Source of the DNA: Flavobacteriales bacterium
GTDB taxonomy: Bacteria > Bacteroidota > Bacteroidia > Flavobacteriales_C > GCA-002722245
DNA length: 50,151 nt
Assembly (NCBI GenBank): GCA_002722245.1
Contig: PBLA01000017.1
Location: 1 to 50,151, forward strand
Direction: 5' to 3'
Shown here: piece by piece, positions 16,116-46,613 of the stretch
How the letters are laid out: every line of letters begins with the position of its first letter
Numbering within the stretch: the stretch's first letter is position 1
Program-made: the position numbers and the translations under genes
Notes under the pieces: generated by a model
Databases searched by the model: none
Seen by the model: the letters and a program-made list of their open reading frames with translations, nothing else
Told to the model about the DNA's origin: nothing

Positions 16116-17390
16116 TTATTTAATAATGAGAGGCTTAGATCGATTGTTAATTTTTAAGAAATAGAGGCCACTCTGAATAGTTGGAATGTTCAACTGACAT
16201 TTATGAGCACCTTTGTTTAATATCCCATATGAACTCGCATAAACCACTCTACCACTTCCATCAATTAAAGATATGTTCAAAGATGTCTCCCTATCAAGGG
16301 TGAAATTTAAATCAATAACATTAGTAGCTGGATTAGGGGATATGATGAACTCATTTAATTTGTGAGTATAATGATCTAATGATAAAGAATTGCTTGTGAG
16401 TTTGTAGTAGACAAAAAGATGTTCAATTACCCATGGATCCCATTGTAAAACTCCGGGTATCAAATATCCTAAATCAGTATTAGATGTAATTGTATGTTCC
16501 AGTACATCTGTATTCATAGTATACGTACAAAAACCTGCATCTCTTGCCCAAAGTTGTTTTGGACTCTTATTGTCTTCTTGTTCTCTAATTAGCGCAAAAA
16601 ATTCGTTGTACTTAGACAGTGTATCTGTTATTGGTGTCCAATCATATCCCGGTTGAAATCTTAAGTAAATTCCATACCGTTCTCCAGCGGCTACTGAATC
16701 ATTCACATCCAATAAGGCGGATCGGATGCTTAAATTTTCAGTAGAATCTCCATCCTCGTGCTCTAGTAAAACAGTATCAGTTCGAGCAATAAAAATTTCA
16801 TGTAACTTATTTTCTTTTGGCACCCCCCTGAATAACCGAATATGCGGAAACTCTCCTATCTCCATTTCTTGATTCCCATTAAAATCATAATACACTAAAT
16901 AATCATTTGAAAAATGCTTTAAGTAGTCTACAAAAAGTGTGTCAACGATTGTATCAGAAGTATTCCTTCTATACGCGTAAGGTATTTCTATTGAATCAAC
17001 AACAATATCTGCCCATTGATCCGACCATTCACTCGGTGTTAAAGACGGATTAATGTACTCCCCAATTCCATGAGTAAACGCATGGTATGGAAATCCAGTA
17101 AGTCTGTCAAATCCTGCTATAATTGTAGAATCAGGAAATAAACTCAAAACCACTAGGTCAACACCATCTTCATCACTCCCAAGGGATTCAATCTCTCCTA
17201 TCTCAGCTAAATTATCAGTTAAAGAGAACCAAGTCTCACCGTAATTTTTAAATCCAAAGGTATTAGAAGTGTAATTAATGTAGCGTTTATGATAAATTTT
17301 AGTTTTCGGTATACTAAAAACTATAGGATTTTGTGCCTGAACCAAAAAGCCTAAAAACACTAGAAAATTTAAAATAAGATTAGTTCTCAT
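16116..17390 (-). CDS. Secreted protein with T9SS type A sorting domain
   Basis: This 424-aa protein has an N-terminal signal peptide (MRTNLILNFLVFLGFLVQAQ) and a C-terminal sorting domain (about residues 345-424). The sorting domain starts IISPNPATNVIDLNF and ends GLYFLKINNRSKPLIIK, the pattern that sends proteins through the type IX secretion system. The central region has no recognised catalytic motif. It is rich in Asp and aromatic residues, with one Asp-rich DFNGNQEMEIGE loop that could bind calcium. It starts 16 nt downstream of the 1096-aa outer-membrane gene and is probably cotranscribed with it. Confidence 0.85.
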   Translation of the reverse strand: MRTNLILNFLVFLGFLVQAQNPIVFSIPKTKIYHKRYINYTSNTFGFKNYGETWFSLTDNLAEIGEIESLGSDEDGVDLVVLSLFPDSTIIAGFDRLTGFPYHAFTHGIGEYINPSLTPSEWSDQWADIVVDSIEIPYAYRRNTSDTIVDTLFVDYLKHFSNDYLVYYDFNGNQEMEIGEFPHIRLFRGVPKENKLHEIFIARTDTVLLEHEDGDSTENLSIRSALLDVNDSVAAGERYGIYLRFQPGYDWTPITDTLSKYNEFFALIREQEDNKSPKQLWARDAGFCTYTMNTDVLEHTITSNTDLGYLIPGVLQWDPWVIEHLFVYYKLTSNSLSLDHYTHKLNEFIISPNPATNVIDLNFTLDRETSLNISLIDGSGRVVYASSYGILNKGAHKCQLNIPTIQSGLYFLKINNRSKPLIIK

Positions 17391-22887: not shown

Positions 22888-25800
22888 CTACTTTGAAACG
22901 ATAATTTTCTGTAAGTATTTCACTTTATCGTTTTTCACTTGGATCGTGTATATTCCTGATTCAAATTCTTCCAAATTTTGATCAATTCGCCCACCTCCAG
23001 TTTGAGTAATCGAATGAACAATGGCTCCTACATTATCGTAAATTTCAATAACATAATCAGTAGATAATCCAATTGGTAGATTATACGACACTATTCCAGT
23101 TGTTGGATTAGGATAGACCACTAAATCTCTCACAAAATAGCCCTCTCTATCCTCTATCGCTTTTACAATTGTACCATCCTCGGCTCCATCAAACTCTACC
23201 GTATCTCCCTCGGCAGTTACACCGCCTTCAGTAGTTAAAACGGCACCTACAGCATCCGACTCACCAATTGCAGTCACATTAATTCGAACTAACTCACCGT
23301 TACCGGTCAATTCCTGATGATCATTTCTACTCTCGGAAATATAAATCTGTCCCAAGTTTTCATTCTCAGTCCCAAAAGTAATTAGATCTTCATCTTCTGT
23401 TCCTAAGAAGGAATTAGAGAAATCATAATTAATAGAATTGTAGTCAAAGATTTCCGGATCTAAATCTATTTCAAATCCAATACCATACATAGTAACATCT
23501 AATGAATCAGGAATAGAAACGGTTAAAACAGCTGTTGCTCCGATATCAATATCATCAACATCCCAATCAATTGATAACTGATTTGCTGCATTTGCTCTTG
23601 GTTGCCAAGGGTGCGAATAAGCAAAGTTTTGCTCGATCACTCCAATGTCGTCTATATCAATAACACCATCACCATTGGCATCACCATGTTTATTATTTAC
23701 ATCTCCCCACAGTAAAGATGACCAGTCTTGGGACTCATGACCTCTCCATTCTGAACTCTCCTCAGATCGCTCTGGTCCCGTTTCACCATAGTGTAACCCA
23801 ATTGGTAAGATATCATAATGGTTAGCTTCTGTATCTAAGTTTGCGTCTCCAGGCCATACACATCCAATTAAACATTTTTGCTCTAAGGAGTTTCCTACTC
23901 TAATCTCTTTACAGAATGTTCGCTCACACCCCACGTCATTACTCACTGTTAAACACACAGGGTAAAAGCCTGTATCTGCATATGTATGTGAAGGATTAAA
24001 TTGAAACGATGTCACTTTATCTCCAAAATCCCAATTATAGCCTGTTATATTTCCTAATGATTTGTTATCAAAATGAGCTGTTGCTGTAACCGCATTTGCA
24101 TAGTAATCAAATTTAGCATGGCATGCGTTGGAAACATCTCCAACTGAGATCACCTCACATTTCGTTTCCTGTCCACCCGTATTATTTCTAACGGTTAAAC
24201 ACACTTCATAATAACCATCCTCTACATAATCATAAATCGGATCTTTACTTACTCCTGCAGAATCACCATCGCCAAAATCCCAATACCATTTACTTGGATT
24301 TCCTGTTGACTCATCCTTAAAATGAACCTTCCCATCAACTGGATCTAGGAAGTAGGAGAAATCTGCTTTGACATATTCATCAATCTGATCAACATTTCCA
24401 ATAACAGAAATCTGATCACAATAGGTGTTAAAGCACCCTGAAATAGAGTCAAAAACAGTTAAACAAACCTCGTATACCCCATCATTTTGATATGTATGAG
24501 AAGGAAAGGAATCATTTGAATTAAATCCATCATTGTAATCCCAAATCCATCCTGTAATATCTCCTTTGATTTGTGGTTCAAACTTAACTGTTCTTCCATC
24601 TGTATAGTATTCAAAATGGGCATCGCAATAATCTGTATTATCATCAATAATCGGAACTTCAACACAGAACTCATCTTGACAACCCGATAGCTCATCAAAC
24701 ACTGTTAAACAGGCTTTATATAACCCTCCGCTTGCAAAATCAACAGTTGGGTTTTCATTATAATTAACAGATCCATTATCAAACTTCCAGAAAGACTTGG
24801 TAAATGTTCCCGCTGATAAATTATTAAACGCCACCGTTGAACCATTTAATGGGAAAAACTCAAATTCGGCTTTACAATCAACAACATTTGTATCCCGCAA
24901 TAATTCAATGACCTCACAGTTATAATCATGACATCCTGAATTAGCATCATAAATCCCCATACAAACATTAAAGAATCCACCATGTGGGAATTCATGCTCA
25001 AGTTCACGATCACCTTCTGAAAAAGTTCCGTCACCAAACTCCCATTTTATATCTGTGTATTGTCCTTTCGAACTACTTTTAAATTTTACAAGAGAGTCAT
25101 TTATCGGAAAGAACTCAAATTTAGCATGACATTCTACTTCGTCTTTATCTTCTCCAATGGCAACCTCTTCTCTGTAAGAGTCTTGACAACCAGTCACACT
25201 ATCTCTTATCATTAATGAAACAGTGTAAACACCTTTACTAGAATATGAGCCTATTGGATCATTATGATCCGCGAACATCCCATTACCTAAATCCCAGTGA
25301 ATATGCGTATAACTCCCTTTAGAAGCATCTTTAAATTGAAGTTCACCATTAGCTAGAGGAATGTATTCAAATTTAGCCTCACAAAAAATGTCCTGTGTAT
25401 CTTTTTGAATGGTTATTGGCTTGCATATAGTAGCCTGACAACCAGAAATACTATCCCATGTGTGTAAACATACTTCATATACACCAGTCTCGGAATATTC
25501 ATGCGTTGCCGAAGAACCATCTGCATAATCTCCATCTCCAAATGACCAGTGCGCATGCGAATTATCCCCTATTGAAGTATTCTTCAAGGTGACCACTCCG
25601 TCTATTACAATATATTCAAAGTCAGCAAGACAATTTACATCTCCTGAATCCAATTGAATATTTACCTCTTCACAAATTGAGGACTGACATCCAGAAACAG
25701 TATCATGGATACTTAAACAAATGTAATAATATCCTGATTCAGCAAACTCATGGGTTGGCTCATTCTCATAGGACTGATTTCCATCACCAAAATCCCAATG

Positions 25801-28800
25801 GGCATGAGTGTATTCACCAATCGATTGGTTAATGGTATGCGCTATACCATTATCATCTATAAATCCATCCATTTTAGCCTGACAGTATATCGCTGAATCT
25901 CCATTTGGTGCAACTGCCACAGGCATACAAATTTGATCATGACACCCTGATTGCTCATCCTTTATAGACATACATACGTCATAATGACCAGGATTTTTAA
26001 ATGCATAACCAAACGACATCGTATTACTGAAATCACCATTTCCTAAATCCCAATAGATATCAGTGAAGTTCCCTACCGGTTTACCAAAAAACTCGAAACC
26101 TCCATTCTCTAATTGAATAAAATCAAACCGTGCACCACAGAAAACATCTTGGGTATCTTTCTGAATGGTAATTAGCTTACACACAGATGCTTGACATCCT
26201 GAAATACTATCCCAAATATCCAAACAAATCTCATACACCCCAGTACCATCAAATATATGATTGGATTGATTTCCATCAGCATAACGACCATCACCAAAAG
26301 ACCAATGACTATTTGTATATTGACCAATTGACGTATTTTCAACTTTTACTTCATCTCCAATAGTCACATAATTAAATTCAGCTGAACAGTTTATATCATT
26401 GGAGTCCAATTGAATATTTACCTCATCACAAGTTTTAGAGTGACATCCAGATCCTTCATCAAAAATACTTAGACAAATGTTATAGATCCCTGAACGTTCA
26501 AAAATATGTGAAGGCGCATTTTCTTTTGTTTGATATCCATCACCAAAATTCCATAAAACATCTGTGTAATCACCAATAGATAAATTAGTCACATAAGCCA
26601 CACCATCATCCCCTAAATATCCATCCATTTTGGCTTCACAATACACCACATTTGTGTCATCTGGAAACACAACAACTTTTTGACAAAACTGATCTTGACA
26701 ACCTGAAATTGAATCAAAAATTGCCATACAAACTTCGTAATGTCCTGGACTTGCATACTGATATGAAAAGGTTTCTTTATCGTTTATTTTACCATCACCT
26801 AAACTAAAATGAATATTGGTGAAGGCACCCGTTGCTCTTGAACTGAAAACAACCTCGCGATTTTCCTTGAGGAAAAAATCAAAGTCAGCTCTACAATTTA
26901 CCACATTAGAATCTACAATTTCTACAACCTTACATCGTGAATTGAAACATTGCGAAGCGGAATCAAACACACTTAAACAAACCTCATAATGACCAGAACC
27001 TGGGAACTCAAATTCAACCTCATTTCCAATTTTGGTTTCCAAACCATCAAGAAATTCCCACTTAACCTCAGAAAAATTTCCATGAGAATGATTCGCAAAA
27101 ACAAATTTCTTCTCTCCAACTGGGAAAAAATCAAAATCAGCATGGCAGATAACATCCTCTGGGTTTGCTAAAATTGTTACTGACTTACACAACTCTGAAA
27201 CGCATCCCGTTTCTGGATTAGCAACACGAATACACACATCATATACTCCCGAAACATCATATGGATGCGTCGGATCATACTCTTCGGATTCTTTTCCATC
27301 ACCAAAAATATATTTCAAAACAGTATAATTCCCTTGAGAAGTGTTGGTAAAACTCACTGAATTTCCATCAATATGATAATCAAAATTAGCATAACAGTTA
27401 TTTTCTTCACTGCTTCCTTCATCACCCTGAATAAAGATAGGCGCACATTTTGAAGTTTGACATCCCGAAGAGGGATCATAAGCTGTTACACAAACATTCT
27501 TGTACCCCACTTTTTCAAAATGATGAATAGGATTTTTTTTGTCGGACTGCAGACCATCACCAAATTGCCAAAAACCTTCATTTAAATTGGTTGTTCCGGA
27601 AAGCGCAAACTGAACTCTTGAAGGATTCATAGGATCCACAACATGTGTAAAGGACACATTACATGTTCCTTCCTGACCAGCAAAAACAGTTAACTTTGCC
27701 GTATCAGCACATCCTTCTCCATGTACATACAAAGATACATGGTGCTCTCCATCATTTTGAAATTCAACACCTACCTCCGGACCATAGTAAGGCTCTCCTT
27801 TTATTTCCCAGGTATTGCTTAAGTATTGACCATCCGCTGAAGCTGATCGGGATTTAAAGGTGAATTTCCTTGAGTTCGATGAATCTTTTTCTGCCCATAT
27901 CGTAGCTAAACAACCATGAATTGGAACCAATGGTTCTCCGTGTTGACCATGATCATCTTCTCCTCCATTACTGTTTTCAATAACAACATCAACAGTTTGA
28001 CAATAAGAGTCTTCACAACCTCCTTCAGTTTCGATTGTTAAACATACAGTTTTAATCCCATCATTAGAATACTGATGTTCGAACGAATTATCAGTATAAG
28101 TTGATCCGTCTCCTGCAGTAAAGCTCAATGAAATAATAGCATCATCACTACCAGCACTTGAATAATCAGTAAATGAATACGTTGAACCATCAGGTGAATT
28201 GTTATAAAATTCAAATGCTGCCTGACAATTTTGACCAGAAGATTCTCCTGAAACAGATATGGAATCACAAAATTGAGCCTCACATCCATTATGAGAAGTA
28301 ATTGTTAAACATACTGGATATGTCTCGCTATGATCATATTGCTTTATTGGATTTTGTTGCACAGACTCAGTACCATCTCCAAAATTCCAATTCCAATACT
28401 GAACTTCTGACTCTGCACTCGATTGATCTTCAAAATGAACTTCTAAGCCATCAGCCGAATCTACATTATACTGAAAATAAGCGCTGCAGTTTTCTCCGCC
28501 ACTTTGATTTGATATGTGAACATCACTACAATAAGAATCTGTACAACCTGCTTCTGTTGTAATGGATAAACAAACATTATAGGTTCCTGGTGGTCCGAAA
28601 TCTTTAGAAGGATCCTTTTCAAAAGAAGTTGTTCCATCGCCAAAATCCCAATTCCAATTTACAATGGGATCGGTATTCGTAGAAGATAAATCTGTAAAGA
28701 TTACCCTGTTTGGACTACCCTCTTCATAACTATGAGAAAAATTAGTAATACAGTTACCATTTTCTATGGATATTACAATTTGACCAGAAATTGAATCCGC

Positions 28801-29079
28801 ACAATTATTTGCTCCAAAAACAAACAATTGGTAATTGTATGTACCTTCTTTTTCGAAGGTAAAATCAGTATTGCTTCTAATAGTGTCTGTGTGTAAATTA
28901 CCTATTCGCCATTCAAAAGAGTTATACTCCTGAGAATGATTGATAAAATAATACTTTAATGGATTTTGTGAATCTTTTTGATGTTCTGCAATGGCTTTAC
29001 ATTGACCAAATGAATTCAGTGTACATGCAACGAAAAAAAGCATAAAACACCATACCCAATTAGGAAGGTTTTTGTTCAT
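22888..29079 (-). CDS. Giant multi-PKD surface protein with dockerin-like and cohesin-like segments and T9SS sorting domain
   Basis: This 2063-aa secreted protein has a signal peptide to about residue 25 (CTLNSFGQ). About 20 PKD-type modules of 80-90 residues follow (to about 1735), most with a WxFGDG core and a VCLTVxDxxSGC-type end. Next come a dockerin-like segment GDANLDTEANHYDILPIG (about 1740), a second calcium loop GDANGDGVIDIDDIGVIEQN (about 1800) and a cohesin-like beta domain (about 1835-1960, starting TAVLTVSIPDSLDVTMYGIG). The C-terminal sorting domain (VVYPNPTTGIVSYNLP to LQKIIVSK, about 1985-2063) marks it as a T9SS cargo attached to the cell surface. No enzyme domain is seen, so adhesion or matrix formation is the likely role. 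Some modules (5, 8) have lost the FGDG motif. Confidence 0.92.
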   Translation of the reverse strand: MNKNLPNWVWCFMLFFVACTLNSFGQCKAIAEHQKDSQNPLKYYFINHSQEYNSFEWRIGNLHTDTIRSNTDFTFEKEGTYNYQLFVFGANNCADSISGQIVISIENGNCITNFSHSYEEGSPNRVIFTDLSSTNTDPIVNWNWDFGDGTTSFEKDPSKDFGPPGTYNVCLSITTEAGCTDSYCSDVHISNQSGGENCSAYFQYNVDSADGLEVHFEDQSSAESEVQYWNWNFGDGTESVQQNPIKQYDHSETYPVCLTITSHNGCEAQFCDSISVSGESSGQNCQAAFEFYNNSPDGSTYSFTDYSSAGSDDAIISLSFTAGDGSTYTDNSFEHQYSNDGIKTVCLTIETEGGCEDSYCQTVDVVIENSNGGEDDHGQHGEPLVPIHGCLATIWAEKDSSNSRKFTFKSRSASADGQYLSNTWEIKGEPYYGPEVGVEFQNDGEHHVSLYVHGEGCADTAKLTVFAGQEGTCNVSFTHVVDPMNPSRVQFALSGTTNLNEGFWQFGDGLQSDKKNPIHHFEKVGYKNVCVTAYDPSSGCQTSKCAPIFIQGDEGSSEENNCYANFDYHIDGNSVSFTNTSQGNYTVLKYIFGDGKESEEYDPTHPYDVSGVYDVCIRVANPETGCVSELCKSVTILANPEDVICHADFDFFPVGEKKFVFANHSHGNFSEVKWEFLDGLETKIGNEVEFEFPGSGHYEVCLSVFDSASQCFNSRCKVVEIVDSNVVNCRADFDFFLKENREVVFSSRATGAFTNIHFSLGDGKINDKETFSYQYASPGHYEVCMAIFDSISGCQDQFCQKVVVFPDDTNVVYCEAKMDGYLGDDGVAYVTNLSIGDYTDVLWNFGDGYQTKENAPSHIFERSGIYNICLSIFDEGSGCHSKTCDEVNIQLDSNDINCSAEFNYVTIGDEVKVENTSIGQYTNSHWSFGDGRYADGNQSNHIFDGTGVYEICLDIWDSISGCQASVCKLITIQKDTQDVFCGARFDFIQLENGGFEFFGKPVGNFTDIYWDLGNGDFSNTMSFGYAFKNPGHYDVCMSIKDEQSGCHDQICMPVAVAPNGDSAIYCQAKMDGFIDDNGIAHTINQSIGEYTHAHWDFGDGNQSYENEPTHEFAESGYYYICLSIHDTVSGCQSSICEEVNIQLDSGDVNCLADFEYIVIDGVVTLKNTSIGDNSHAHWSFGDGDYADGSSATHEYSETGVYEVCLHTWDSISGCQATICKPITIQKDTQDIFCEAKFEYIPLANGELQFKDASKGSYTHIHWDLGNGMFADHNDPIGSYSSKGVYTVSLMIRDSVTGCQDSYREEVAIGEDKDEVECHAKFEFFPINDSLVKFKSSSKGQYTDIKWEFGDGTFSEGDRELEHEFPHGGFFNVCMGIYDANSGCHDYNCEVIELLRDTNVVDCKAEFEFFPLNGSTVAFNNLSAGTFTKSFWKFDNGSVNYNENPTVDFASGGLYKACLTVFDELSGCQDEFCVEVPIIDDNTDYCDAHFEYYTDGRTVKFEPQIKGDITGWIWDYNDGFNSNDSFPSHTYQNDGVYEVCLTVFDSISGCFNTYCDQISVIGNVDQIDEYVKADFSYFLDPVDGKVHFKDESTGNPSKWYWDFGDGDSAGVSKDPIYDYVEDGYYEVCLTVRNNTGGQETKCEVISVGDVSNACHAKFDYYANAVTATAHFDNKSLGNITGYNWDFGDKVTSFQFNPSHTYADTGFYPVCLTVSNDVGCERTFCKEIRVGNSLEQKCLIGCVWPGDANLDTEANHYDILPIGLHYGETGPERSEESSEWRGHESQDWSSLLWGDVNNKHGDANGDGVIDIDDIGVIEQNFAYSHPWQPRANAANQLSIDWDVDDIDIGATAVLTVSIPDSLDVTMYGIGFEIDLDPEIFDYNSINYDFSNSFLGTEDEDLITFGTENENLGQIYISESRNDHQELTGNGELVRINVTAIGESDAVGAVLTTEGGVTAEGDTVEFDGAEDGTIVKAIEDREGYFVRDLVVYPNPTTGIVSYNLPIGLSTDYVIEIYDNVGAIVHSITQTGGGRIDQNLEEFESGIYTIQVKNDKVKYLQKIIVSK
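23896..28996 (-). repeat. Array of about 20 PKD modules
   Basis: Tandem 80-90 codon modules inside the 2063-aa gene. I counted 20 by their FGDG-like cores and by the recurrent pattern of one Cys near the module start (xCxAxFxF), VCL, GC and a final C. The modules differ enough that the array is old, apart from a recent three-module duplication noted separately. Confidence 0.85.
25387..26904 (-). repeat. Duplicated three-module block inside the PKD array
   Basis: Modules 9-11 (26139-26904) and 12-14 (25387-26138) are two copies of a block of about 755 nt. Corresponding parts are nearly the same, e.g. YCEAKMDGYLGDDG against YCQAKMDGFIDDNG, VNIQLDSNDINC against VNIQLDSGDVNC, and ITIQKDTQD at the end of both. 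DNA similarity is plain by eye in several stretches. Boundaries are approximate. Confidence 0.75.
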
Positions 29080-37600: not shown

Positions 37601-39783
37601 CAGCCATAAAAGTCAGTACTTAAGTTTCTATAAAATTCTCTAGAGTACCTGGACAAGTAGGTGGGAACACCCAGTGATGACGATCCTAAAAACCCGATAG
37701 CTCCTTTATTCTCTGATAACACAAATCGCTCACTACCACTGGTTGTTAACGTACTGTGAACATTACCAATCAAACACGAATTAGCAATAATAAAAGGATA
37801 CCTGCCTGTATTGTCATAATTTTCAGGCTCATCAATACTTTGATCAAAATTATTTGAATACGCATGACCAAAAAATGTCATTAAACTCACTCCTTGATTA
37901 ATTAAACTTTTTACTGAATCTGATAAATTTAATTGAAGAGGGTCTGATGAATTCTTTAAAAAAGTATGGACATAACCACCAAAGAAAGAATCTTCAATCA
38001 ATTCTTCATATTCCATAAGATAATTCCTAAAACTCTCTTGTTCACTTTCTGAATCTCCCCCACCAAAATGGAGCACTTGTTTCATCCAATCATCTATAAC
38101 AGCGGACTCGTATTCTTTCACTTTATTTAAATAGTCCAGCAACTGACTATTATTGTTTACAGCTAGTCGACCAGTTGCTATTGCAGGATCGAGAACGGTT
38201 CCAGGTTTTAATCCGGCAGTAAATCCAGCATCGGCCCCTATTACGCCCCAGGTAGGTACAATATTATGTTCAAACAAACTTCCAAATCTTGCCCCATTAT
38301 TGTTCATGGAGATCGATTTCCCACACAAAAACATATAGGTAGGATCATACCCCCAATAATTGAGAATCGCATCAGCATAATTCCGAATAGCCATTGGGTG
38401 TTTACGTATACCGTAGGAAAATTGATCATACAATTGTTCCACATCACTCACAATCGTTCTTAAACCACTGGAATCTCGATATACTGCATATTCATTGGCT
38501 GCATCTAATATTGAAGATCCTGTTATCAATAAATAATCTACTCCTCCTTTTTCTTCAATAAGTTGATTGAAATTAATAAATCGTGAAGATCCTGAACTGA
38601 CGGATTCCAAACCGGTAATAGACTTTATAGATGCCTCTGTGGTTAATAAACACTTGCGCTCGGTATTTGAGTTGGGAACATAGGCATAATATTTACCATA
38701 TTTAGGAACAACCTGAATTTTTCTTCCCGACGTTAAGTCATAGAGCCGAGGTGTAGAATTGAGGTCATTAAAATTTTTAATCTCAATCAAATCTTTCTCC
38801 TCATCCACCTTAGGCAAGCGCATCATAATATTACTTTGATTATCAAAATTAAATTCTTTCGCATACCTAAAATGAATGTAAGCAATACCAACTTTATCCT
38901 TTGGTTTATCTTCAGGTGAAGTACTTTGAAATGTCACAGTCGTATTGTCTTCTATCCAATTAATCGGAAGATCTCGAGTGATCTGCACAGATTTTCTATC
39001 AGTAAAAAAATCCTGATAAATCAAACTATCATTCACATCAACCTCAAAATAATGCGTTTCAAAACCCATTCCGAAGATTTTCGTTTTAATCCACCCTGTG
39101 GGGCCCATTGAATATTTATGAGGTGTACTTATACTGTATGATTTAAACTCCGTACTTGATAGTCGCCAAAGATACCTTCCTTCTCCTTCAGAATACTCTG
39201 GAACAGCATATCCAAATTGAGTGGTTTGACCTAGATTAAATCTTGAATGCTTTGAACTTATGTGCTCTTTCGGATCATACGTATAAACGATTTCTTCCCA
39301 ATAATAGGGCATTGGAGGATTGGCAGTCGTATCAATACTAATATCAAACTCTTCAATTATTCTTGCATTATCGAGACTATTGTTCCATGTTAAAAAATAA
39401 TATGCGGTATCACTAAACATACTCACATGGGGATTCAAATTGTGCGCTGAATCAGAAAATAAAGTATGGTCATACCATCCTGTATTGGTTTCTCCGTAAA
39501 ATTCAATATAGTCACCTGGATCAAAGACTCCATTATCGTCACCTGAAATAAATATAGGTACTTCAACTCCTCTGGAAAACAACTGGGTTTTTCTTGGATC
39601 AAATGCCGTATCAGAAATATTTACACCGGCATTCAACAACTGCTGATATTCAATCCTATACATTCCATCACTAGCAATGGGAAACTTAAAATAGCTCTGA
39701 TCATATTTTATCCAGTCATTAGCGGTTTGTGCATGTGAAAAAACAGCCAATAACATTAAACAATATGTAAGAACTTGTTTCAT
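34657..39783 (-). CDS. porU2: Putative type IX secretion system sortase PorU2 (C25 family)
   Basis: This 1708-aa secreted protein has a signal peptide (MKQVLTYCLMLLAVFSHAQ). It carries a gingipain-type C25 peptidase domain with the catalytic His in MTFFGHAYSNN (about 637) and Cys in FIIANSCLIGN (about 668). A long region of Ig-like and CARDB-like beta domains follows. It ends in a FlgD-like/C-terminal domain INYPNPFSTSTRFVFTL to GIGKLYILR. PorU cleaves the sorting domain and attaches cargo to the surface; the longer PorU2 form is a paralogue whose separate role is unclear. It overlaps the porV2 gene by 4 nt, which fits the PorU-PorV partnership. Confidence 0.9.
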   Translation of the reverse strand: MKQVLTYCLMLLAVFSHAQTANDWIKYDQSYFKFPIASDGMYRIEYQQLLNAGVNISDTAFDPRKTQLFSRGVEVPIFISGDDNGVFDPGDYIEFYGETNTGWYDHTLFSDSAHNLNPHVSMFSDTAYYFLTWNNSLDNARIIEEFDISIDTTANPPMPYYWEEIVYTYDPKEHISSKHSRFNLGQTTQFGYAVPEYSEGEGRYLWRLSSTEFKSYSISTPHKYSMGPTGWIKTKIFGMGFETHYFEVDVNDSLIYQDFFTDRKSVQITRDLPINWIEDNTTVTFQSTSPEDKPKDKVGIAYIHFRYAKEFNFDNQSNIMMRLPKVDEEKDLIEIKNFNDLNSTPRLYDLTSGRKIQVVPKYGKYYAYVPNSNTERKCLLTTEASIKSITGLESVSSGSSRFINFNQLIEEKGGVDYLLITGSSILDAANEYAVYRDSSGLRTIVSDVEQLYDQFSYGIRKHPMAIRNYADAILNYWGYDPTYMFLCGKSISMNNNGARFGSLFEHNIVPTWGVIGADAGFTAGLKPGTVLDPAIATGRLAVNNNSQLLDYLNKVKEYESAVIDDWMKQVLHFGGGDSESEQESFRNYLMEYEELIEDSFFGGYVHTFLKNSSDPLQLNLSDSVKSLINQGVSLMTFFGHAYSNNFDQSIDEPENYDNTGRYPFIIANSCLIGNVHSTLTTSGSERFVLSENKGAIGFLGSSSLGVPTYLSRYSREFYRNLSTDFYGWPLGKIIQQTIRDMQDSTNVLNRDVAMYMTLHCDPAIVLNTQEKPDFTIYGDVELSKPNVIFSPENISSNLDSFDLNLQINNIGKVQGDTFSVFISRAFPGVIQIDTTYVFQLVNNSFRNEIHMRLPVDKINGVGMNKFTIRVDGLSQVDELNELNNIVEVEIFINSSNVLPIFPYEFAIVPNYNSVLKASTGSPYSDLTTYFFQIDTSSTFDSPILTEEVIESYGGVLEWDPNKSLKLADFYNRFDTISFISTPRVFYWRVSADSSNNGGFKWVNSSFQFVNDKTGWGQAQFNQLGKNEFLFIDFNEDLKTLDFIEQVKTIKARTHLSGGWVQRQQTKYEIDGTLKCYESSYWSRMFFVAVIDRYSLEPWHSLEHGDYGHVNFQANRSIPEWNHYNFYFVHGNVGLDSLMSFYEDVPDSNYMLFYTFRGNYCSSYFTGQPISDRYEEMFTEIGASVDSLKNYPDNYPYILFFKKGDPGSVIESFSLDGLDYINLEGKMRNSWWNGKVTTPLIGPGKAWSSIHWDLQASEENNVKDSARISVYGVDIDGNQTLILDSLTGEGEDLNLGDYEGVSSYPYLKLESFFADDSLRTPDKIARWQVTYDEIPDAAINPLKLSGYTLIDSVQQGEDLFFITAIENISRVPMDSLQVSYQVINHEFQYFPISYKYKKALQPGEVIYDTVIVKTTDLIGENSLWYEINPFTGPNPWQLEQHHFNNSYLHSFRVHEDELNPLLDVTFDGVRILNGDIVNPQSEIVITLNDENQFLALDDASLLQVFINYPSSMNEDSLVLLDPTEYIFTPAELPKNKCKITLQGDFKQDGVHELRVMAIDKSRNTSGDGNGAFDYSISFSIVTESSISQLINYPNPFSTSTRFVFTLTGTEIPDQMFIQIMTINGKVVKEITQDELGPINIGRNITEYAWDGTDNYGDKLANGVYLYKVQTQIDGVEIKRREEEVSSAQDGTTLSSKYFKNGIGKLYILR

Positions 39784-40841
39784 TTTCTTTTGTTTATTCC
39801 AAATCTTATTGAAAAAGAATTCGCATAGAACCCAGTACTACCACCAATATTTGTTAACGCATAATCCAGCGCTACTTTATTTAATTTAATACCTCCTCCC
39901 AAAGAAGGACTACTATACCATTTCTCTTCTCCATCAATGGTAGCAGCCCTTTGAAAACCGTTGATACCAATTCTCAAAAAAGCGATTTTTTTATAACTCG
40001 CTTCTAGGCCCATTCTGGGATCAATACTTGCAAAATCTGACCGAATAAGTGTATTTCTTTTCCCATCAAATGTAGTTGATAAATTGAGCTCAGAGTATAC
40101 TTCAAATTTATCTGAAAATTCATACATGTAACCAACTCCAAAAACAGCTTGAGGAACTGTAATTTCTAAGGAATTTTGTGGTATCTCATTTCCTGTTAAG
40201 GTAAATACTTCATTCAATTCATCACTATTAAAATACCAAGCATTCCAAGTCCCAGTTATATCCCTCAAATTAACGCCAAATTTTATTTTTTCTAATTCGT
40301 AAAGGGCAGATAAATCTAAACCAAATCCAACAGCGTTTGCAAATTCGCCCACTCGTCTTCGGATAATTTTAACGGTTCCGCCTACAGACAGCGGATCAAA
40401 TTGTGTCTTTTTTGCATAATGAAACAAAAATGCATTATCTACACTAGAAAAACTTTCGATTCGATCGTAATTAATATCCCCATTGGCATCAATTAAATTT
40501 CGTGTATCGGGTATATCTTCTACACCCGTTCGAATGTAAGAAAACCCTGCCGATGAACTTTCATCAATTTTAAATCCTAAACCACCGTAATTATAACTGG
40601 CTACTCCTGCAAACAAATTACTTCGTTGTGCACCAATCTCAATATTATTTTCCAAATGAAGAAGGCTTGCGGGATTCCAGTATCCTGCAGTAACATCATT
40701 TGAACTAGCAACAACGGCATTTCCCATCCCAGCTGATCGAACACCCACTCCTATATTTAAGAATTCATTGCTGTACTTCACTTGACCATACCCGATCTGA
40801 GAAATAATTAGAAATAATAATAGAAAGGTTGCCTTAAACAC
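39780..40841 (-). CDS. porV2: Putative type IX secretion system outer-membrane protein PorV2
   Basis: This 353-aa FadL-like/PorV-family barrel has a signal peptide (FLLLFLIISQIGYGQ) and the typical opening FLNIGVGVRSAGMGNAVVAS-SNDVTAGYWNPASLL. It ends in a strand SFSIRFGINKRK. PorV shuttles cargo from the translocon to PorU. Together with the downstream porU2 it makes a porV2-porU2 pair. The start appears to be GTG 40841; no in-frame ATG gives a signal peptide. The usual porV/porU pair and the translocon genes are not in this window. Confidence 0.87.
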   Translation of the reverse strand: MFKATFLLLFLIISQIGYGQVKYSNEFLNIGVGVRSAGMGNAVVASSNDVTAGYWNPASLLHLENNIEIGAQRSNLFAGVASYNYGGLGFKIDESSSAGFSYIRTGVEDIPDTRNLIDANGDINYDRIESFSSVDNAFLFHYAKKTQFDPLSVGGTVKIIRRRVGEFANAVGFGLDLSALYELEKIKFGVNLRDITGTWNAWYFNSDELNEVFTLTGNEIPQNSLEITVPQAVFGVGYMYEFSDKFEVYSELNLSTTFDGKRNTLIRSDFASIDPRMGLEASYKKIAFLRIGINGFQRAATIDGEEKWYSSPSLGGGIKLNKVALDYALTNIGGSTGFYANSFSIRFGINKRK

Positions 40842-41153
40842 AATGTATCAATTTAAATGTTAAAAATACATAAAACTATCAGCTATGTAACGGTTTTTTT
40901 TCTCTTCTATTGTTTTGATTTCTTTGAACCAAAAGGTAATTAATAATACAAATTAAAAAAGGTGAATAAACTCCTGAAAATTCAAATATTAATATGTCTG
41001 TTTTTTAAACAAGGTTAATAATCACCAATTAACTTATAAACAAGTATTTACAACTAGAAATTCATCTTATTAAACCAAAAAAAGAGTTTGATAGAAGTGT
41101 AAATTTTGTACTTAAATCTTAAGTATATTTGCATTTGTAAAATTTGAGCAATT
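40842..41153. other. 312-nt intergenic region between divergent porV2 and pssA
   Basis: This stretch is strongly AT-rich and has no credible open frame, tRNA or small RNA that I can recognise. Near its left end the minus strand has TACATTGT as a weak -7 box for porV2. A GTTAAT-N8-ATTAAC inverted repeat lies in the middle. A -7 box for pssA is near its right end. Confidence 0.5.
41105..41131 (+). promoter_or_regulatory. Probable promoter of the pssA-MBOAT-SGNH operon
   Basis: TATATTTG (41124-41131) is a perfect -7 box 22 nt before TTG 41154. The nearest TTTG (41105-41108) is only 15 nt upstream, shorter than consensus. Confidence 0.45.
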
Positions 41154-41885
41154 TTGAAATCCATTATACCAAACTTCCTTACATCATTAAACTTATTTTG
41201 TGGATGTATAGCAGTACTTTCTTTTTTAAACCATTACTATTTTACGGGTATTTTGCTTGTATTACTCTCTGCAACAGCAGACTTTTTTGATGGTTTTGTA
41301 GCTCGATTAATGAATGTTCAATCTGAACTTGGAAAAGAATTAGATTCCTTGGCTGATATGATTTCTTTTGGCTTCGTACCTGGAACGCTTATTTATGTTG
41401 CTTTTTTAAACAATTCCTCGTTTTCATCATTCGCGGAACTACTTGAAAACCAATATTATTTACCCTTTATAGGCTTTATAATTACTGTTTTTTCAGGTGT
41501 TAGGCTTGCAAAATTTAATATTGATAAAAGACAGAGTCAATCTTTCATTGGACTTCCAACACCTGCCAACACATTATTTTTTCTAACTATCCCTTTGACT
41601 TGGGTGTATGGGGAAGAAAATGAATTTGTAAATGAAATGATTAATAATAACTACATTTTGACTTTACTAACCCTCCTTTTTTCATTTTTACTCATTGCAG
41701 AACTTCCCTTAATTGCATTAAAATTTAATGGATTTAATTTAAAAAATAATCGATACAGATACCTTCTAATCTCCTCAGGAATAGTTTTCGTAATACTTTT
41801 TGGTCACTTATCAATCCCACTGATTTTAGTTAGTTATATCTGCATTAGTTGTTTAGAGCATTTTTTGACAAAAGCAAAAACATAA
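41154..41885 (+). CDS. pssA: CDP-diacylglycerol--serine O-phosphatidyltransferase
   Basis: This 243-aa integral membrane enzyme makes phosphatidylserine, the precursor of phosphatidylethanolamine. The complete CDP-alcohol phosphatidyltransferase motif DG-x2-AR-x8-G-x3-D-x3-D is present (DGFVARLMNVQ, then G, D and D at the expected spacing, about residues 46-68). About six to eight membrane segments follow. The start is TTG 41154, giving KSIIPNFLTSLNLFCGCIAV, which aligns with the normal start; no ATG is nearby. The stop codon touches the MBOAT start (TAA then ATG), so the two are tightly coupled. Confidence 0.93.
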   Translation: MKSIIPNFLTSLNLFCGCIAVLSFLNHYYFTGILLVLLSATADFFDGFVARLMNVQSELGKELDSLADMISFGFVPGTLIYVAFLNNSSFSSFAELLENQYYLPFIGFIITVFSGVRLAKFNIDKRQSQSFIGLPTPANTLFFLTIPLTWVYGEENEFVNEMINNNYILTLLTLLFSFLLIAELPLIALKFNGFNLKNNRYRYLLISSGIVFVILFGHLSIPLILVSYICISCLEHFLTKAKT

Positions 41886-43214
41886 ATGGAAATTATCTCC
41901 GTAAAGTATTTACTTTATGTTCTCCTTTTTTTGATCACATTTCAATTACTCAATACCAAATACAGGTCATATTGGGTACTTGGATTCAGTCTCTTTTTTT
42001 ATGGATCAATTTCTCATATTCTCCTTTTAGCATTACTAATTTCAATTGGATTTAATTACTGGATTACCTATACTAAGTTTAAATTCAAAAACAGTATTGC
42101 AATCATATTTAACACATTACTTCTTTTTAGTTTTAAATGGAGTCCATCCAACTTTATACTGCCAATTGGTATTTCATTTTTCACTTTTCAAGCTCTAAGT
42201 TTTGTGTTTGATCAATCTAACTCAAAACCTGTAACGATTATCCAATTTGCGAATTACCTGTCATTTTTCCCGCAATTAATTGCTGGGCCTATTGAAACGT
42301 ATGATCATTTAGCGCCTCAATTAACCTTATTGAAACCCATTCAAAGAACGCATTTTTTTCCGGGAATTAGTTTAGCCTTAAAAGGATTAGTATTCAAATT
42401 TGTTATCGCCAATAGATGCGGAATCATTGTTAAAAGCTTCTATGACGAAATTTCTTATTTTGATGGTTGGATGCTTCTTTTGGCAAATACATTATTTACA
42501 TTTCAAATTCTACTTGATTTTTCTGGATACTGTTTACTTGCCAGAGGAATAGCTAAAATCATGGGCGTAGAGTTGAGTAAAAACTTTTTTTCACCTTACT
42601 TATCCTCCTCCCTATCTGACTTTTGGAAAAGATGGCATACAACCTTACATATTTGGTTTAAAAACTATGTTTTTAAACCCCTAATAATCAAGTACTCCTT
42701 TTGGAAAGTTGCTGGAATTATTTTTCTGATTTCGAGTCTTTGGCACGGTTTGAAAATAAATTTTTTGATTTGGGGTATGACCTGCTTTGTTCTTTTACTA
42801 ATGGATAAATACCTTATACAAAAATTTATACGCTCAAAAAAAATCACATGGTTTATAACATTTTGCTGTGTTTCTCTAAGTTGGATTCCATTTCGAATAT
42901 CCGATTTCAATGCACTACTTAATTTATCATGGAATTTGAATGATTTTCTTCTCTTTGTAAAGGACCATCATTACGTCATTTTTAATGACTTCATGAATAA
43001 CATTTCAAGTACTTGCGAATATGCAGGAAAAAATTTAGGCATTACCTTTCTCGACTTTTACATTATGACTTTAAGTTTAATTACTTTTTGTGTTTGTTCA
43101 ATAATTTTTAAATCAAAAATCATACATAACCTCTATACGTCCTTTATTTTCTTTTTACTTCTCTGTTTTTTAGGATTCGATAATTCAACACCATTTATAT
43201 ACTTCCAATTTTAA
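41886..43214 (+). CDS. MBOAT family membrane O-acyltransferase (AlgI-like)
   Basis: This 442-aa polytopic protein has about ten or more membrane helices. It carries the MBOAT landmarks PIGISFFTFQALSFVFD (about 93-109), FFPQLIAGPI, DFSGYCLLARGIAKIMG, SLSDFWKRWHTTLHIWF and the catalytic His287 in SSLWHGLK. AlgI, PatA and DltB relatives move acyl groups across the membrane to polysaccharide, peptidoglycan or teichoic acid. The acceptor here is unknown. It sits between pssA (no gap) and an SGNH-like gene (1-nt overlap), so the three probably form one transcription unit. Confidence 0.9.
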   Translation: MEIISVKYLLYVLLFLITFQLLNTKYRSYWVLGFSLFFYGSISHILLLALLISIGFNYWITYTKFKFKNSIAIIFNTLLLFSFKWSPSNFILPIGISFFTFQALSFVFDQSNSKPVTIIQFANYLSFFPQLIAGPIETYDHLAPQLTLLKPIQRTHFFPGISLALKGLVFKFVIANRCGIIVKSFYDEISYFDGWMLLLANTLFTFQILLDFSGYCLLARGIAKIMGVELSKNFFSPYLSSSLSDFWKRWHTTLHIWFKNYVFKPLIIKYSFWKVAGIIFLISSLWHGLKINFLIWGMTCFVLLLMDKYLIQKFIRSKKITWFITFCCVSLSWIPFRISDFNALLNLSWNLNDFLLFVKDHHYVIFNDFMNNISSTCEYAGKNLGITFLDFYIMTLSLITFCVCSIIFKSKIIHNLYTSFIFFLLLCFLGFDNSTPFIYFQF

Positions 43215-44056
43215 TGAAATTCTGGTTCTCTATATTTTGTTTTGTTCTTGTTGTTTATGCGGGCAATCCGATTAGAGATTGTTTGAACGAACAAATTATT
43301 AAGCAGTCAAAAGGAACGAATTATTACAAAATAAATAGAGCACTTCAAGATACCACTCAAATTAGTATTTGGGGAAATTCAACCGCCTTCATGAGTTTTG
43401 ATGCAGGAATGATTGAAAAAAAAACCCAACGTTCCTGCTATAATTATGGGATTGAAGGTGCTTTTTACAATGAACTTATCCATTTAGAGTACTTTAATCA
43501 AAATAACACAGGCAAACATATCATTTGGATTCTTAATCCCTTTGAATTTTTACGTCATCAAAACTCTAAAATTAATATCATTGATCATTATTTACCTTTT
43601 TCCCATACAAATATTGAGCATCATCAATTGCAAAAAAATGGTTTTTCTTTTCTTAAGTATTTTGGCTGGAATACAATCTTCCGAATGAATGCTGAACATT
43701 GGAAACTAATCCTTGGTGGGAAAAATAAAGTGAATTTTGATCAACACGGAAACATACAATTTGAGCAAGATTTCAAACATGAAAATGCCTTTTATCAAGA
43801 CTCGCTAAAATACTCTTTAGATAAAATAAAGGAAATAAACGCGCTCATAAAATCCATAAATAAAAACAATCAATTAACACTTGTAATCCCTCCAAACCTT
43901 ACTCATCAAGATTTCAATTCTTTTATTAAACAGATCACGCATCCAATTATTGATTTCTCTAACTTTTTTACTGATCAATCGAGTTTTCAAGACCACATCC
44001 ATATTAGACCTAATAAAATGGGTGTGCTAACTACACAGTTAATCAGAAAATTTTAA
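43214..44056 (+). CDS. SGNH/DltD-like exported protein, partner of MBOAT
   Basis: The 280-aa protein has one N-terminal membrane or signal segment (KFWFSIFCFVLVVYAG). SGNH-type landmarks are visible: block I IWGNSTAFMSFDAGMIE with candidate nucleophile Ser56, CYNYGIEGAFYNELI as the second block, and FQDHIHIRPNKMG near the C-terminus with Asp260 and His263 (DxxH). Such proteins often take the acyl group from an MBOAT and transfer it to an extracellular acceptor (DltD, AlgX, PatB type). ATG 43214 overlaps the MBOAT stop by one base. It lies convergent with lptB, 6 nt apart. Confidence 0.72.
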   Translation: MKFWFSIFCFVLVVYAGNPIRDCLNEQIIKQSKGTNYYKINRALQDTTQISIWGNSTAFMSFDAGMIEKKTQRSCYNYGIEGAFYNELIHLEYFNQNNTGKHIIWILNPFEFLRHQNSKINIIDHYLPFSHTNIEHHQLQKNGFSFLKYFGWNTIFRMNAEHWKLILGGKNKVNFDQHGNIQFEQDFKHENAFYQDSLKYSLDKIKEINALIKSINKNNQLTLVIPPNLTHQDFNSFIKQITHPIIDFSNFFTDQSSFQDHIHIRPNKMGVLTTQLIRKF

Positions 44057-44062
44057 TGCTCT

Positions 44063-44791
44063 TTAAGATTTTCTCAACTTAAAATTTTGACCAAGATAAA
44101 CTCTTCTTACTTGTTCATCCTCTGCCAACTCTTCTGCTGTGCCCGTTTTTAATATACTTCCCTCAAAAAGAAGATTTGCCCGATCTACAATATGAAGTGT
44201 TTCTTGAACATTATGGTCGGTAATCAAAATCCCAATATTTTTCTTCTTGAGTTTTGAAACAATATCTTGAATATCCTCTACTGCAATAGGATCAACACCA
44301 GCAAATGGTTCATCTAATAAAATAAATTTTGGATCAACAGTTAAACAGCGAGCAATTTCAATTCTTCTTTTCTCTCCACCTGATAAAACCTCTCCTAAGT
44401 TTTTTCGGACATGCTGAAGACCAAATTCATCCAATAACCCTTCCAATTTTGCCTCTTGCGCCTCTTTGGATAAATCAGTCATTTCTAAGATAGCTTTGAG
44501 ATTATCCTCAACCGTAAGTTTTCTAAAAACAGAAACCTCTTGAGGAAGATATGCGATCCCTAATTGCGCCCTTTTAAACATTGGAACTCGGGTAATGTTC
44601 AGATCGTCAAGATAAACTGCTCCTGAGTCGGGCTGAATAAACCCTACAATCTGATAAAAAGAGGTTGTTTTACCAGCACCATTTGGTCCTAATAGGCCAA
44701 CAATTTCACCTTGATTAACTTCAACCGAAACACCATTAACAACTTTCCTTCCTTTGTAGATCTTAACTAAATTCTCCGTCCGTAATTTCAT
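44063..44791 (-). CDS. lptB: LPS export ABC transporter ATP-binding protein LptB
   Basis: This 242-aa ATPase drives LptFG to extract lipopolysaccharide from the inner membrane. Walker A is [12 protein letters not shown] (from residue 35), the Q-loop region is [19 protein letters not shown], the signature is [15 protein letters not shown], Walker B is [13 protein letters not shown] and the switch is [10 protein letters not shown]. These sequences are characteristic of LptB rather than other ABC ATPases. It overlaps the tatC stop by 4 nt. The order kdsD-tatC-lptB is one I recall from other Bacteroidota. Confidence 0.96.
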
Positions 44792-45636
44792 ATTTCACGT
44801 CTTTTATTTACTGATTTAGAAATGAAAATTGACAATTCATAAAGAATCACAATCGGTATTGCAACAATGATTTGACTAACCACGTCTGGAGGGGTTATGA
44901 TTGCAGCAATCACCAAGGTTGCGACAAAAGAATGCTTTCTATATTTCTTCATCCCATCTGGAGAAACAATACCTGCTTTTGAAAGGAAATAAACCAATAC
45001 AGGAAGTTCAAACATCACACCTGCTGCTAAAGTAGTTGAGGCTACAATCCCCATGAAACTGTTCATAGGAAAATAATCTAATGTATCCGTCCCTAACTCA
45101 AATCCTATTAAAAAATGAACACTCAGTGGATTAATAATAAAATACCCAAACAAGATACCACAGGCAAATAAGAGCGACGAGAAAAAAACCAATCCTTTCG
45201 CACTTTTTTTCTCTTTTGGATACAGCGCGGGCTTCAAAAATCGCCAAAACTCCCATAATATATATGGAAATCCAATAATCAGTGCACCAATTAAAGCCAC
45301 TAACATAGCCGTCATGAATTTTCCTGTCACTTTACCCGGTAAAAATTTAGGATCAATAGGATCAAAACACATCACGTCCGAATCGATAAAATTTGGCCAT
45401 ATACTATTCAGATATTGAGAGGTTTCACAAAATTTAACATATGTCCAAAAATCCATTTCCTTCGAGGACATTACAATGTGCTCAAACACAAAATCACGAT
45501 AGATGTATACTACACATGCAAGAATAAATAAAACAATAACAATGCGCATTAGCACCCATCGAAGAACCTCCAAATGTTCCAAAAAAGACATTTGATTATT
45601 TTTGTTTCCTGGGTTTGGTCCTGAGTAATCCGACAT
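44788..45636 (-). CDS. tatC: Sec-independent protein translocase subunit TatC
   Basis: This 282-aa six-helix membrane protein is the twin-arginine signal receptor of the Tat pathway. The N-terminus has the conserved [12 protein letters not shown] segment, the first periplasmic loop is extended ([13 protein letters not shown]), and [21 protein letters not shown] contains the conserved cytoplasmic Glu region. [18 protein letters not shown] and [12 protein letters not shown] follow near the C-terminus. It starts 5 nt after the kdsD stop and overlaps lptB. No tatA/B gene is in the window. Confidence 0.96.
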
Positions 45637-45641
45637 GCTAT

Positions 45642-46613
45642 CTATTCTGAAATCCCCTCTTTAATTAAATCATGTAAATGAACCATTCCTTTATAGGAAT
45701 GATGTTCGTCCACAATAACTATTTGAGTAATATTTTCCTTTTTAATCACCTGCATAGCATCATTGGCCAAAGTTCCAATTTTTAAAGACACAGGGTGTTT
45801 TCCCATAATGTCTTTTGCCGAAACACTTTTTAGATCTTTTACTTGCTCAATCATTCTACGAATATCTCCATCTGTGATAATACCTATTACCTTTTCTCCA
45901 TCAACAACAGCCGTCGCTCCTAATCTTTTAGAGGACATTTCGTATATGATTTCATTTATCCCAGCCTCTTTACTTACTTGAGGCTTTGCATTAGCTTCTA
46001 TGATATCATCTACCTTCAAATAGAACATCCTACCTAGAGCACCTCCAGGATGAGATTTAGCAAAATCAACACTCGTAAAACCTCTCATATTAATCAATGC
46101 AACCGCAAGAGCATCACCTAGAGCCATTTGAGCAGTTGTACTACTGGTTGGCGCTAAGTTGTTTGAACAAGCCTCTCGTTCAACTCTGCAGAGCAATAAC
46201 CAATCTGATTTTTTACCTAAATCACTATCCGCATTACCCACAATACCAACAACCTTATTTCCTCTTGACTTAATAAAAGGTAAAAGTGATTTTATTTCAG
46301 GACTATTTCCGGAATTACTTAATATCATCACAATATCATCAGACTGAACGATCCCTAAATCACCATGAATTGCGTCTGCCGCATGCATAAATACAGAAGG
46401 TGTTCCTGTACTATTAAACGTGGCTACAATTTTATGGGCAACATTAGCACTTTTACCAATACCACTGATAACAATTCTACCCTTACATTCATATATAGCT
46501 CTTGTGGCCTTTGAAAAATCCTCTGTGATTAAAGGAATAAGACCATGGAGACTCTCTGCTTCAATTCGAAGTGTTTCTTTGGCCGAATCTAATATCTCTT
46601 TGTCAGATAACAA
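45642..46613 (-). CDS. kdsD: D-arabinose 5-phosphate isomerase (KpsF/GutQ family)
   Basis: This 323-aa enzyme makes arabinose-5-phosphate for Kdo, the inner sugar of LPS. It has an N-terminal SIS domain (GRIVISGIGKSANVAHKIVAT, ILSNSGNSPEIKSLLP), the HPGGALGR motif and two C-terminal CBS domains. The start is TTG 46613: an in-frame TAA lies two codons upstream and the next ATG is far inside the SIS domain. The first codon lies in a palindrome TAACAATTGTTA. It leads the kdsD-tatC-lptB operon and is divergent from recQ, fitting LPS supply and export. Confidence 0.93.
   Translation of the reverse strand: MLSDKEILDSAKETLRIEAESLHGLIPLITEDFSKATRAIYECKGRIVISGIGKSANVAHKIVATFNSTGTPSVFMHAADAIHGDLGIVQSDDIVMILSNSGNSPEIKSLLPFIKSRGNKVVGIVGNADSDLGKKSDWLLLCRVEREACSNNLAPTSSTTAQMALGDALAVALINMRGFTSVDFAKSHPGGALGRMFYLKVDDIIEANAKPQVSKEAGINEIIYEMSSKRLGATAVVDGEKVIGIITDGDIRRMIEQVKDLKSVSAKDIMGKHPVSLKIGTLANDAMQVIKKENITQIVIVDEHHSYKGMVHLHDLIKEGISE

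Follow-up and report, generated by a model that had tools for sequence, protein, structure and literature searches.

Comparison with known acylation systems

Several described systems relay acyl groups across the membrane by means of an MBOAT acyltransferase and an SGNH-fold partner. In the excerpts of PMC12148441, PatA is an MBOAT protein with a C-terminal F-x-Y-x-x-F motif that works with a separate membrane-anchored SGNH protein, PatB; the motif was shown biochemically to be an acyl shuttle, and its Tyr is auto-acetylated from acetyl-coenzyme A (acetyl-CoA), the acetyl group is then passed to a Ser of PatB, and no loading of the DltA/DltC type is involved. The same excerpts describe the motif and its role for DltX as well as for PatA, and they assign alginate acetylation by AlgI-AlgJ/X and cellulose acetylation by WssH-I to the same MBOAT-SGNH type, with a fused hexapeptide. 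For DltB-DltD, in which the shuttle peptide is carried by DltX, the active residues His289 and His336 of DltB were placed at the extracellular face (excerpts of PMC11035591). Here, we analyzed a stretch of 50,151 nucleotides from a Flavobacteriales bacterium (contig PBLA01000017.1 of assembly GCA_002722245.1; hereafter, the window), in which a gene of the phosphatidylserine synthase type (pssA) is followed by an MBOAT gene and an SGNH gene. The two enzymes are a pair of a known kind; for the recurrent slot beside pssA itself, and for pssA-linked acyltransferases, no prior report was found in the literature searched, whose coverage left out most subscription papers.

The open reading frames (ORFs) confirmed the trio, all on the plus strand, at the positions given in the original prediction. 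The pssA gene (41154..41885) encodes a CDP-alcohol phosphatidyltransferase of 243 residues from a TTG start (PF01066, E = 7.6e-21); it scored 105 bits against the TIGR00473 pssA model, just below the cut-off of 107, and a homologue was present in 60 of 60 genomes. The gene for the DltB/AlgI/PatA-like MBOAT acyltransferase (41886..43214, 442 residues; PF03062, E = 5.6e-22) follows with zero gap, and that for the SGNH-fold protein (43214..44056, 280 residues), DltD/PatB-like on its AlphaFold2 (AF2) model, overlaps the MBOAT gene by one base in TAATG. His287 of MBOAT and Ser56, Asp260 and His263 of the SGNH protein, which had been named as active-site residues, were read directly in the sequence.

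The MBOAT residues were compared across 45 aligned MBOATs, which are the best matches in the fetched loci and a subset of all MBOATs found; two truncated duplicates (L030 and L035) were left out. The presumed catalytic His287 of the WHG motif (codon 42744..42746) and His251 (codon 42636..42638) were His in 45 of 45, and all 45 ended in the acyl-shuttle motif F-x-Y-x-x-F, which in the window is FIYFQF (43194..43211) with the invariant Tyr439 (codon 43200-43202). The only PDB sequences matched were two DltB sequences (1.4e-17 and, for 6bug, 1.7e-17), and by this alignment His251 and His287 would correspond to His289 and His336 of DltB. The AF2 model (14 rows) had a mean predicted local distance difference test score (pLDDT) of 84.9, with the shuttle peptide (residues 435-442) in a low-confidence tail. 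Upon a Foldseek search with this model, DltB 6bug was the best match (7.5e-11), while LPCAT3 followed at 1.5e-5. The score against the DltB equivalog TIGR04091 was 113.6 bits, far from its cut-off of 375.

As a single sequence, the SGNH protein gave no Pfam, NCBIfam or PDB match above cut-off, and with a threshold of E = 10, an 18-row profile matched 26 PDB sequences, many of them presumably by chance, the best being acylhydrolases (0.006) and DltD (0.023). Within the alignment, Gly54, Ser56, Asn77, Gly79, Pro227 and His263 were invariant in 18 of 18 rows. Ser56 (codon 43379..43381) is the presumed nucleophile, and the D-x-x-H motif (Asp260-His-Ile-His263, 43991..44002) had Asp at position 260 in 15 rows and Asn in 3. 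The AF2 model, built from the same 18 rows, had a mean pLDDT of 86.9 and an N-terminal helix at residues 2-30 that is presumed to be a membrane anchor. Two DltD structures (6pfx at 1.2e-4, the other at 1.6e-4) were the sole Foldseek matches at E up to 0.001, so the structure prediction proposed earlier did yield an SGNH fold. VIA placed sialate O-acetylesterase highest, with a Z-score of 11.4 (162 aligned residues, root mean square deviation (rmsd) of 3.3), followed by DltD 3bma (10.8; 231 residues, rmsd 5.3) and PatB 7trr (10.6; 154 residues, rmsd 2.8), with the PatB structures ranging from 10.2 to 10.6. Rows within one unit are tied, and the result therefore names the SGNH fold and not a subfamily; on the model, this is the DltD/PatB/OatA (SGNH) fold.

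Relative to PatA-PatB, the window pair has the same overall architecture and likewise lacks DltA-type loading, as judged from the DltA result given below, with no DltC search made. The genetic setting is different. PatAB has the Ape1 esterase gene alongside, while the trio is flanked by porV2 and lptB, both on the opposite strand; the pair sits beside pssA, porV2 and lptB. In addition, block II of PatB carries Ser or Asn in the excerpts of PMC12148441, whereas the SGNH rows have Gly79 at the presumed block II. Among solved folds, that of DltB is closest to MBOAT, DltD is the top Foldseek match of its partner, and the two histidines are the same; in contrast to the Dlt system, the shuttle peptide is fused to MBOAT, the DltB equivalog score falls short and DltA was not over cut-off. 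Bacteroidota make lipopolysaccharide (LPS), not teichoic acid. The AlgI and WssH systems also differ in context, as a Pfam scan of 18 window proteins revealed no alginate or cellulose genes. Standalone AT3 O-acetyltransferases (PF01757), unrelated in fold and family, are found in this same slot next to pssA in 11 of 108 regions.

A proposed acyl relay in an envelope gene block

We propose, with a probability of about 0.58, that the MBOAT and SGNH proteins constitute a PatAB/AlgI/Dlt-type acyl relay across the membrane that acts on an envelope glycan, with pssA as a neighbour in the block. The elements of such a relay were found side by side: an MBOAT fold with a conserved His, a shuttle Tyr, and an adjacent SGNH protein with Ser and D-x-x-H, for which the model helix suggests an anchor. 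The earlier proposal of an envelope-acylation module is thus supported by the catalytic residues of both proteins, the C-terminal shuttle motif and the SGNH fold. MBOAT, using His287, would load Tyr439 of FIYFQF with an acyl group, most likely acetyl, taken from a CoA donor in the cytoplasm; the membrane-anchored SGNH protein would then take the group on Ser56 and hand it to a hydroxyl of the glycan. The likeliest acceptor would be LPS, or the LPS-type glycan where PorU attaches secreted proteins. In this relay, pssA would not be a chemical partner and is probably a co-transcribed neighbour in a conserved porU-porV2 / pssA / lptB-tatC block. A CoA donor is favoured because DltA (TIGR01734) was over cut-off in 0 of 11 genomes, of which G001, G003 and G026 are only 74-84% complete; weaker matches to the model in 10 of the 11 are presumably other AMP-binding or nonribosomal peptide synthetase frames.

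The neighbouring genes fit an envelope setting. On the minus strand before the trio are porV2 (39780..40841; NF052325, 430 bits, above cut-off), an outer-membrane protein gene of the type IX attachment system, and a peptidase C25 gene (34657..39783; PF01364, E = 3.6e-60), which we would call porU from its family and its position next to porV2. The trio is thus flanked by attachment genes of the porV type and the C25 porU type of the type IX secretion system, a statement that concerns the neighbours and not the MBOAT-SGNH pair. Past the trio, also on the minus strand and above their cut-offs, are genes for the LPS export ATPase LptB (44063..44791; TIGR04406, 365 bits), TatC (44788..45636; TIGR00945, 149 bits) and a KpsF/KdsD-like arabinose-5-phosphate isomerase (45642..46613; TIGR00393, 298 bits). 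Both lptB and kpsF/kdsD serve LPS by known pathways. The lptB gene is convergent with the trio, its 3' end lying 6 bases past the SGNH stop, and kpsF/kdsD starts 1.6 kb from that stop; the remark that polysaccharide genes are missing nearby was therefore misleading.

Distribution of the trio and recurrence of the slot

Close MBOAT orthologues (E up to 1e-55) were found in 3 of 395 genomes of the class, all in one genus: the window genome (G000) and two other species (G002 and G003). All three keep the order pssA-MBOAT-SGNH with gaps of zero to three bases, and the one-base overlaps are retained in G002 and G003; because the same order and near-zero gaps recur in these two, the trio is not an assembly accident. 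Two further members of the genus, G001 (74% complete) and G004 (100%), had no close orthologue at the same threshold, and their pssA runs directly into lptB. In the five genomes of the sister genus that were examined, pssA adjoins porV2 and the pair is not there. One side of the locus is unseen in G006, whose contig stops about 0.5 kb past pssA, and in G004, whose contig stops just before pssA and leaves out the porV2 side. Conservation of the trio, put forward earlier as a check, therefore holds for three species of one genus and fails for two of its members. Upstream of pssA, a putative promoter block on the plus strand (41111..41131), ending in TATATTTG, is near-identical in G000, G002 and G003 and differs in the pair-less G001; its reading as a putative promoter draws on TAnnTTTG, the consensus of Bacteroidota promoters.

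To place this coupling in a wider context, pssA neighbourhoods were gathered from each of the 100 genera, among 103, that had a pssA match, and in three genera from additional species as well, which gave 109 regions, 108 of them usable (L116 has no pssA ORF). Within 1.5 kb of pssA, 20 acyltransferase genes (9 MBOAT and 11 AT3) were found in 315 kb, as compared with 1 gene in 1453 kb at 1.5-9 kb; genome density, taken from 352 MBOAT and 388 AT3 matches in 159 genomes with an assumed mean size of 3.5 Mb, would give about 0.42 and 1.9, respectively. Counted by genus, after nine extra species of already-counted genera had been dropped, 18 of 99 genera, under 14 family labels, had an MBOAT or AT3 gene no more than 1.5 kb from pssA. 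Genera are not independent, and the small probabilities of this enrichment are not to be taken literally. As the coupling recurs in 18 of 99 genera, it is more than a local accident, and common ancestry by itself would hardly bring two unrelated enzyme families into one slot. The worry that pssA adjacency might be peculiar to this locus thus applies to close MBOAT orthologues, with their 3 of 395 genomes, and not to acyltransferases in general.

The slot AT3 genes were all on the pssA strand (11/11), and 10 of them either overlap pssA by 3-40 bases, upper bounds that come from using the longest ORF, or lie within 8 bases of it. An AT3 profile based on three slot proteins and a wider one gave the same count. 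In the AT3 tree, 4 label changes were needed among 32 rows, at least 3 of them forced by starred branches, and AT3 has probably entered or left the slot several times. A standalone AT3 and an MBOAT are called functionally interchangeable in the excerpts of PMC9833829, and from one bacterial family to another the two enzyme types appear to substitute for each other. The window genome itself had no PF01757 match at 1e-5.

Linkage to porV2-porU

By genus and with relatedness uncorrected, an acyltransferase accompanied 16 of the 38 pssA loci that have porV2 within 7 kb and 2 of the 61 that do not; put the other way, porV2 was nearby in 16 of the 18 acyltransferase-bearing genera, the others being L083 and L137, both with AT3. 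Orientation divides the slot genes. In L077-L080, the MBOAT-SGNH pair is transcribed divergently from pssA and leads into porV2-porU, with either a short overlap or no more than about 50 bases between genes; in L081, about 150 bases intervene. The AT3 genes and the window pair instead have the orientation of pssA. L242 has the order MBOAT-SGNH-porV2-porU with no pssA within its 13.8 kb. The porV2-linked MBOATs (L077-L081, L242 and L251) formed one clade of 7, and the window-genus MBOATs formed a separate clade of 3, each with a Shimodaira-Hasegawa-like approximate likelihood ratio test (SH-aLRT) value of 100. A single common origin of all slot MBOATs may hold even though the two clades are drawn apart, as joining them was not rejected by the approximately unbiased (AU) test (p = 0.358). 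The trees were built quickly and contain long branches (L082 and the L093/L098/L099 group); the AU-tested tree omits the L092 row and retains both clades. The SGNH families of the trio genus and of the porV2-linked loci aligned at an hhalign E of 3.3e-7 with a probability of 93 (3 versus 7 rows).

A wider comparison of porV2 loci covered 80 of 584, with a top identity of 53% as against 74-75% in genus members. The porV2-pssA gap held no gene of at least 100 residues in 60 of 92 cases, a list that includes duplicates (L210 and L237, of L077 and L079) and doubtful porV2 loci (L161 and L190). Other gap genes were a GT2 gene, a methyltransferase-like gene, genes for unnamed polytopic proteins and a cation efflux gene (L114).

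Assessment of alternative explanations

Within the genus, the link to pssA is genuine, and it belongs to a broader pattern of recurrence, but what it points to is the porU-porV2-pssA-lptB block and not a phospholipid product. The original prediction had favoured the latter, with the pair adding acyl groups to the head group of a phospholipid, to a serine- or amino-lipid or to a lipid-linked sugar to whose synthesis pssA contributes. Such an acceptor would explain the tight coupling of the trio in three species and the AT3 genes that adhere to pssA, twice without porV2 (L083 and L137), and MBOAT folds do include lysophospholipid acyltransferases such as LPCAT3. We nevertheless consider it unlikely: in the excerpts of PMC12148441, a C-terminal shuttle motif with an SGNH partner is the mark of the polymer-acylating kind, the DltB structural match ranks ahead of LPCAT3, linkage is far rarer at pssA loci without porV2, the porV2-linked pair faces away from pssA or, in L242, is without it, and LPS genes flank the trio. 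A peptidoglycan O-acetyltransferase, a true PatAB equivalent present at the locus by chance, would share the motif and architecture seen here, and PatB structures are among the VIA matches; this seems rather unlikely given that the named genes flanking the trio include no O-acetyl-peptidoglycan esterase, that Gly79 stands in 18/18 rows where block II would be expected, and that presence is patchy inside one genus. Doubtful as well is the view that a horizontally gained pair for surface-polysaccharide acylation has hitchhiked into a permissive slot whose position says nothing of function. Presence and absence within the genus would suit it, as would the somewhat low GC (0.30-0.31 across 40-44 kb as compared with 0.31-0.38 elsewhere in the window) and the varied gap cargo, cation efflux gene included, beside many empty gaps; what speaks against it is that two unrelated acyltransferase families occur far above the density expectation and that the window genus and the porV2-linked clade each show operon-like coupling. 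Even so, hitchhiking would give a clean case of one chromosomal slot repeatedly gaining envelope-modifying genes.

Several observations weigh against the glycan relay that we prefer. We infer both its acceptor and its acyl group. The window pair is co-oriented with pssA and not with porV2-porU, as are all slot AT3 genes, two genera of which have no porV2 near, and the porV2 association may partly reflect lineages that keep an old gene order. Since G001, G004 and five sister-genus genomes are without the pair, it is dispensable for the envelope block. Moreover, as judged by eye, a homologous MBOAT-SGNH pair (L111) lies among respiratory-complex-like genes, with no polysaccharide genes around. 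A narrower version, in which the pair and the slot AT3/MBOAT enzymes O-acylate or O-aminoacylate an LPS sugar used as the PorU anchor, is very improbable. According to the excerpts of PMC11969387, the amino acid to which PorU joins secreted proteins is carried by a sugar of LPS, the acceptors described in three species terminate in an amino acid borne by a sugar, and the pathway placing alanine on the acceptor in Prevotella intermedia is stated to be unknown. Earlier work found PorV to be indispensable for lipid A deacylation (excerpts of PMC5562754). By analogy, a Dlt-like relay in a porU-porV2 operon would be one way to supply the acceptor amine. This literature is background to the idea and not evidence for it; the acceptor amino acids are N-linked, not esters, and DltA was over cut-off in none of the genomes searched.

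If the slot is functional, it would help to tell from genomes which envelope glycan carries O-acyl groups in a broad range of Bacteroidota, most of them uncultured, and it would connect a glycan modification with the locus responsible for anchoring secreted proteins. The glycan relay is testable because one genus holds species with and without the pair that are otherwise syntenic.

Paralogues and other features

The window genome contains four MBOATs. The two closest paralogue pairs of the genus that were inspected (L094 and L095) lie beside a flippase-like polysaccharide gene, glycosyltransferases and a UDP-GlcNAc 2-epimerase, a setting that favours the glycan relay. The possibility, raised beforehand, that the pair is mostly found beside capsule genes in relatives did not hold for the close orthologues, which are beside pssA in 3 of 3 cases; the polysaccharide setting belongs to the nearest paralogues, in these two places. 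A 933-residue protein with an MBOAT region (G000:C23, L092:8452-11253) has WHG at 778 and ends in FIYFQF, and comparable long open frames of 932-974 residues occur in eight other genomes of the family. At about residues 84-93, the MBOATs of the three window-genus species lack 21 residues relative to five of the other slot MBOATs (34 relative to L082), and they are about 20 residues longer at 337-392, where a short hairpin was modelled. A DltA-like AMP-binding frame (G000:C7:46556-47533, about 466 residues), far below the DltA cut-off, is kept in four members of the genus, some of which have the pair and some not.

Ten unidentified slot proteins (447-549 residues) and one from outside the gap, in L074, gave no Pfam match. 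The latter (L074:5115-6503 in G003) is a polytopic protein of 462 residues between the SGNH gene and lptB, glycosyltransferase-like by eye, and it is not in G000 or G002. A polytopic membrane family of 478-500 residues without a Pfam match, about 26-61% identical by BLAST and possibly glycan-related, recurs between porV2 and pssA (L191:1927-3429, L081:8793-10277, L089:7375-8829, L195:5554-6990 and L197:8356-9846).

Elsewhere in the window, a frame at 482-1534, near the left contig end, matches a serine-recombinase-type C-terminal part (PF07508 and PF13408) and may be a truncated mobile-element gene. Two window proteins (22888-29079 and 16116-17390) carry Por_Secre_tail above cut-off, one of them having 2063 residues and many PKD domains, which indicates that type IX cargo is encoded in the window.

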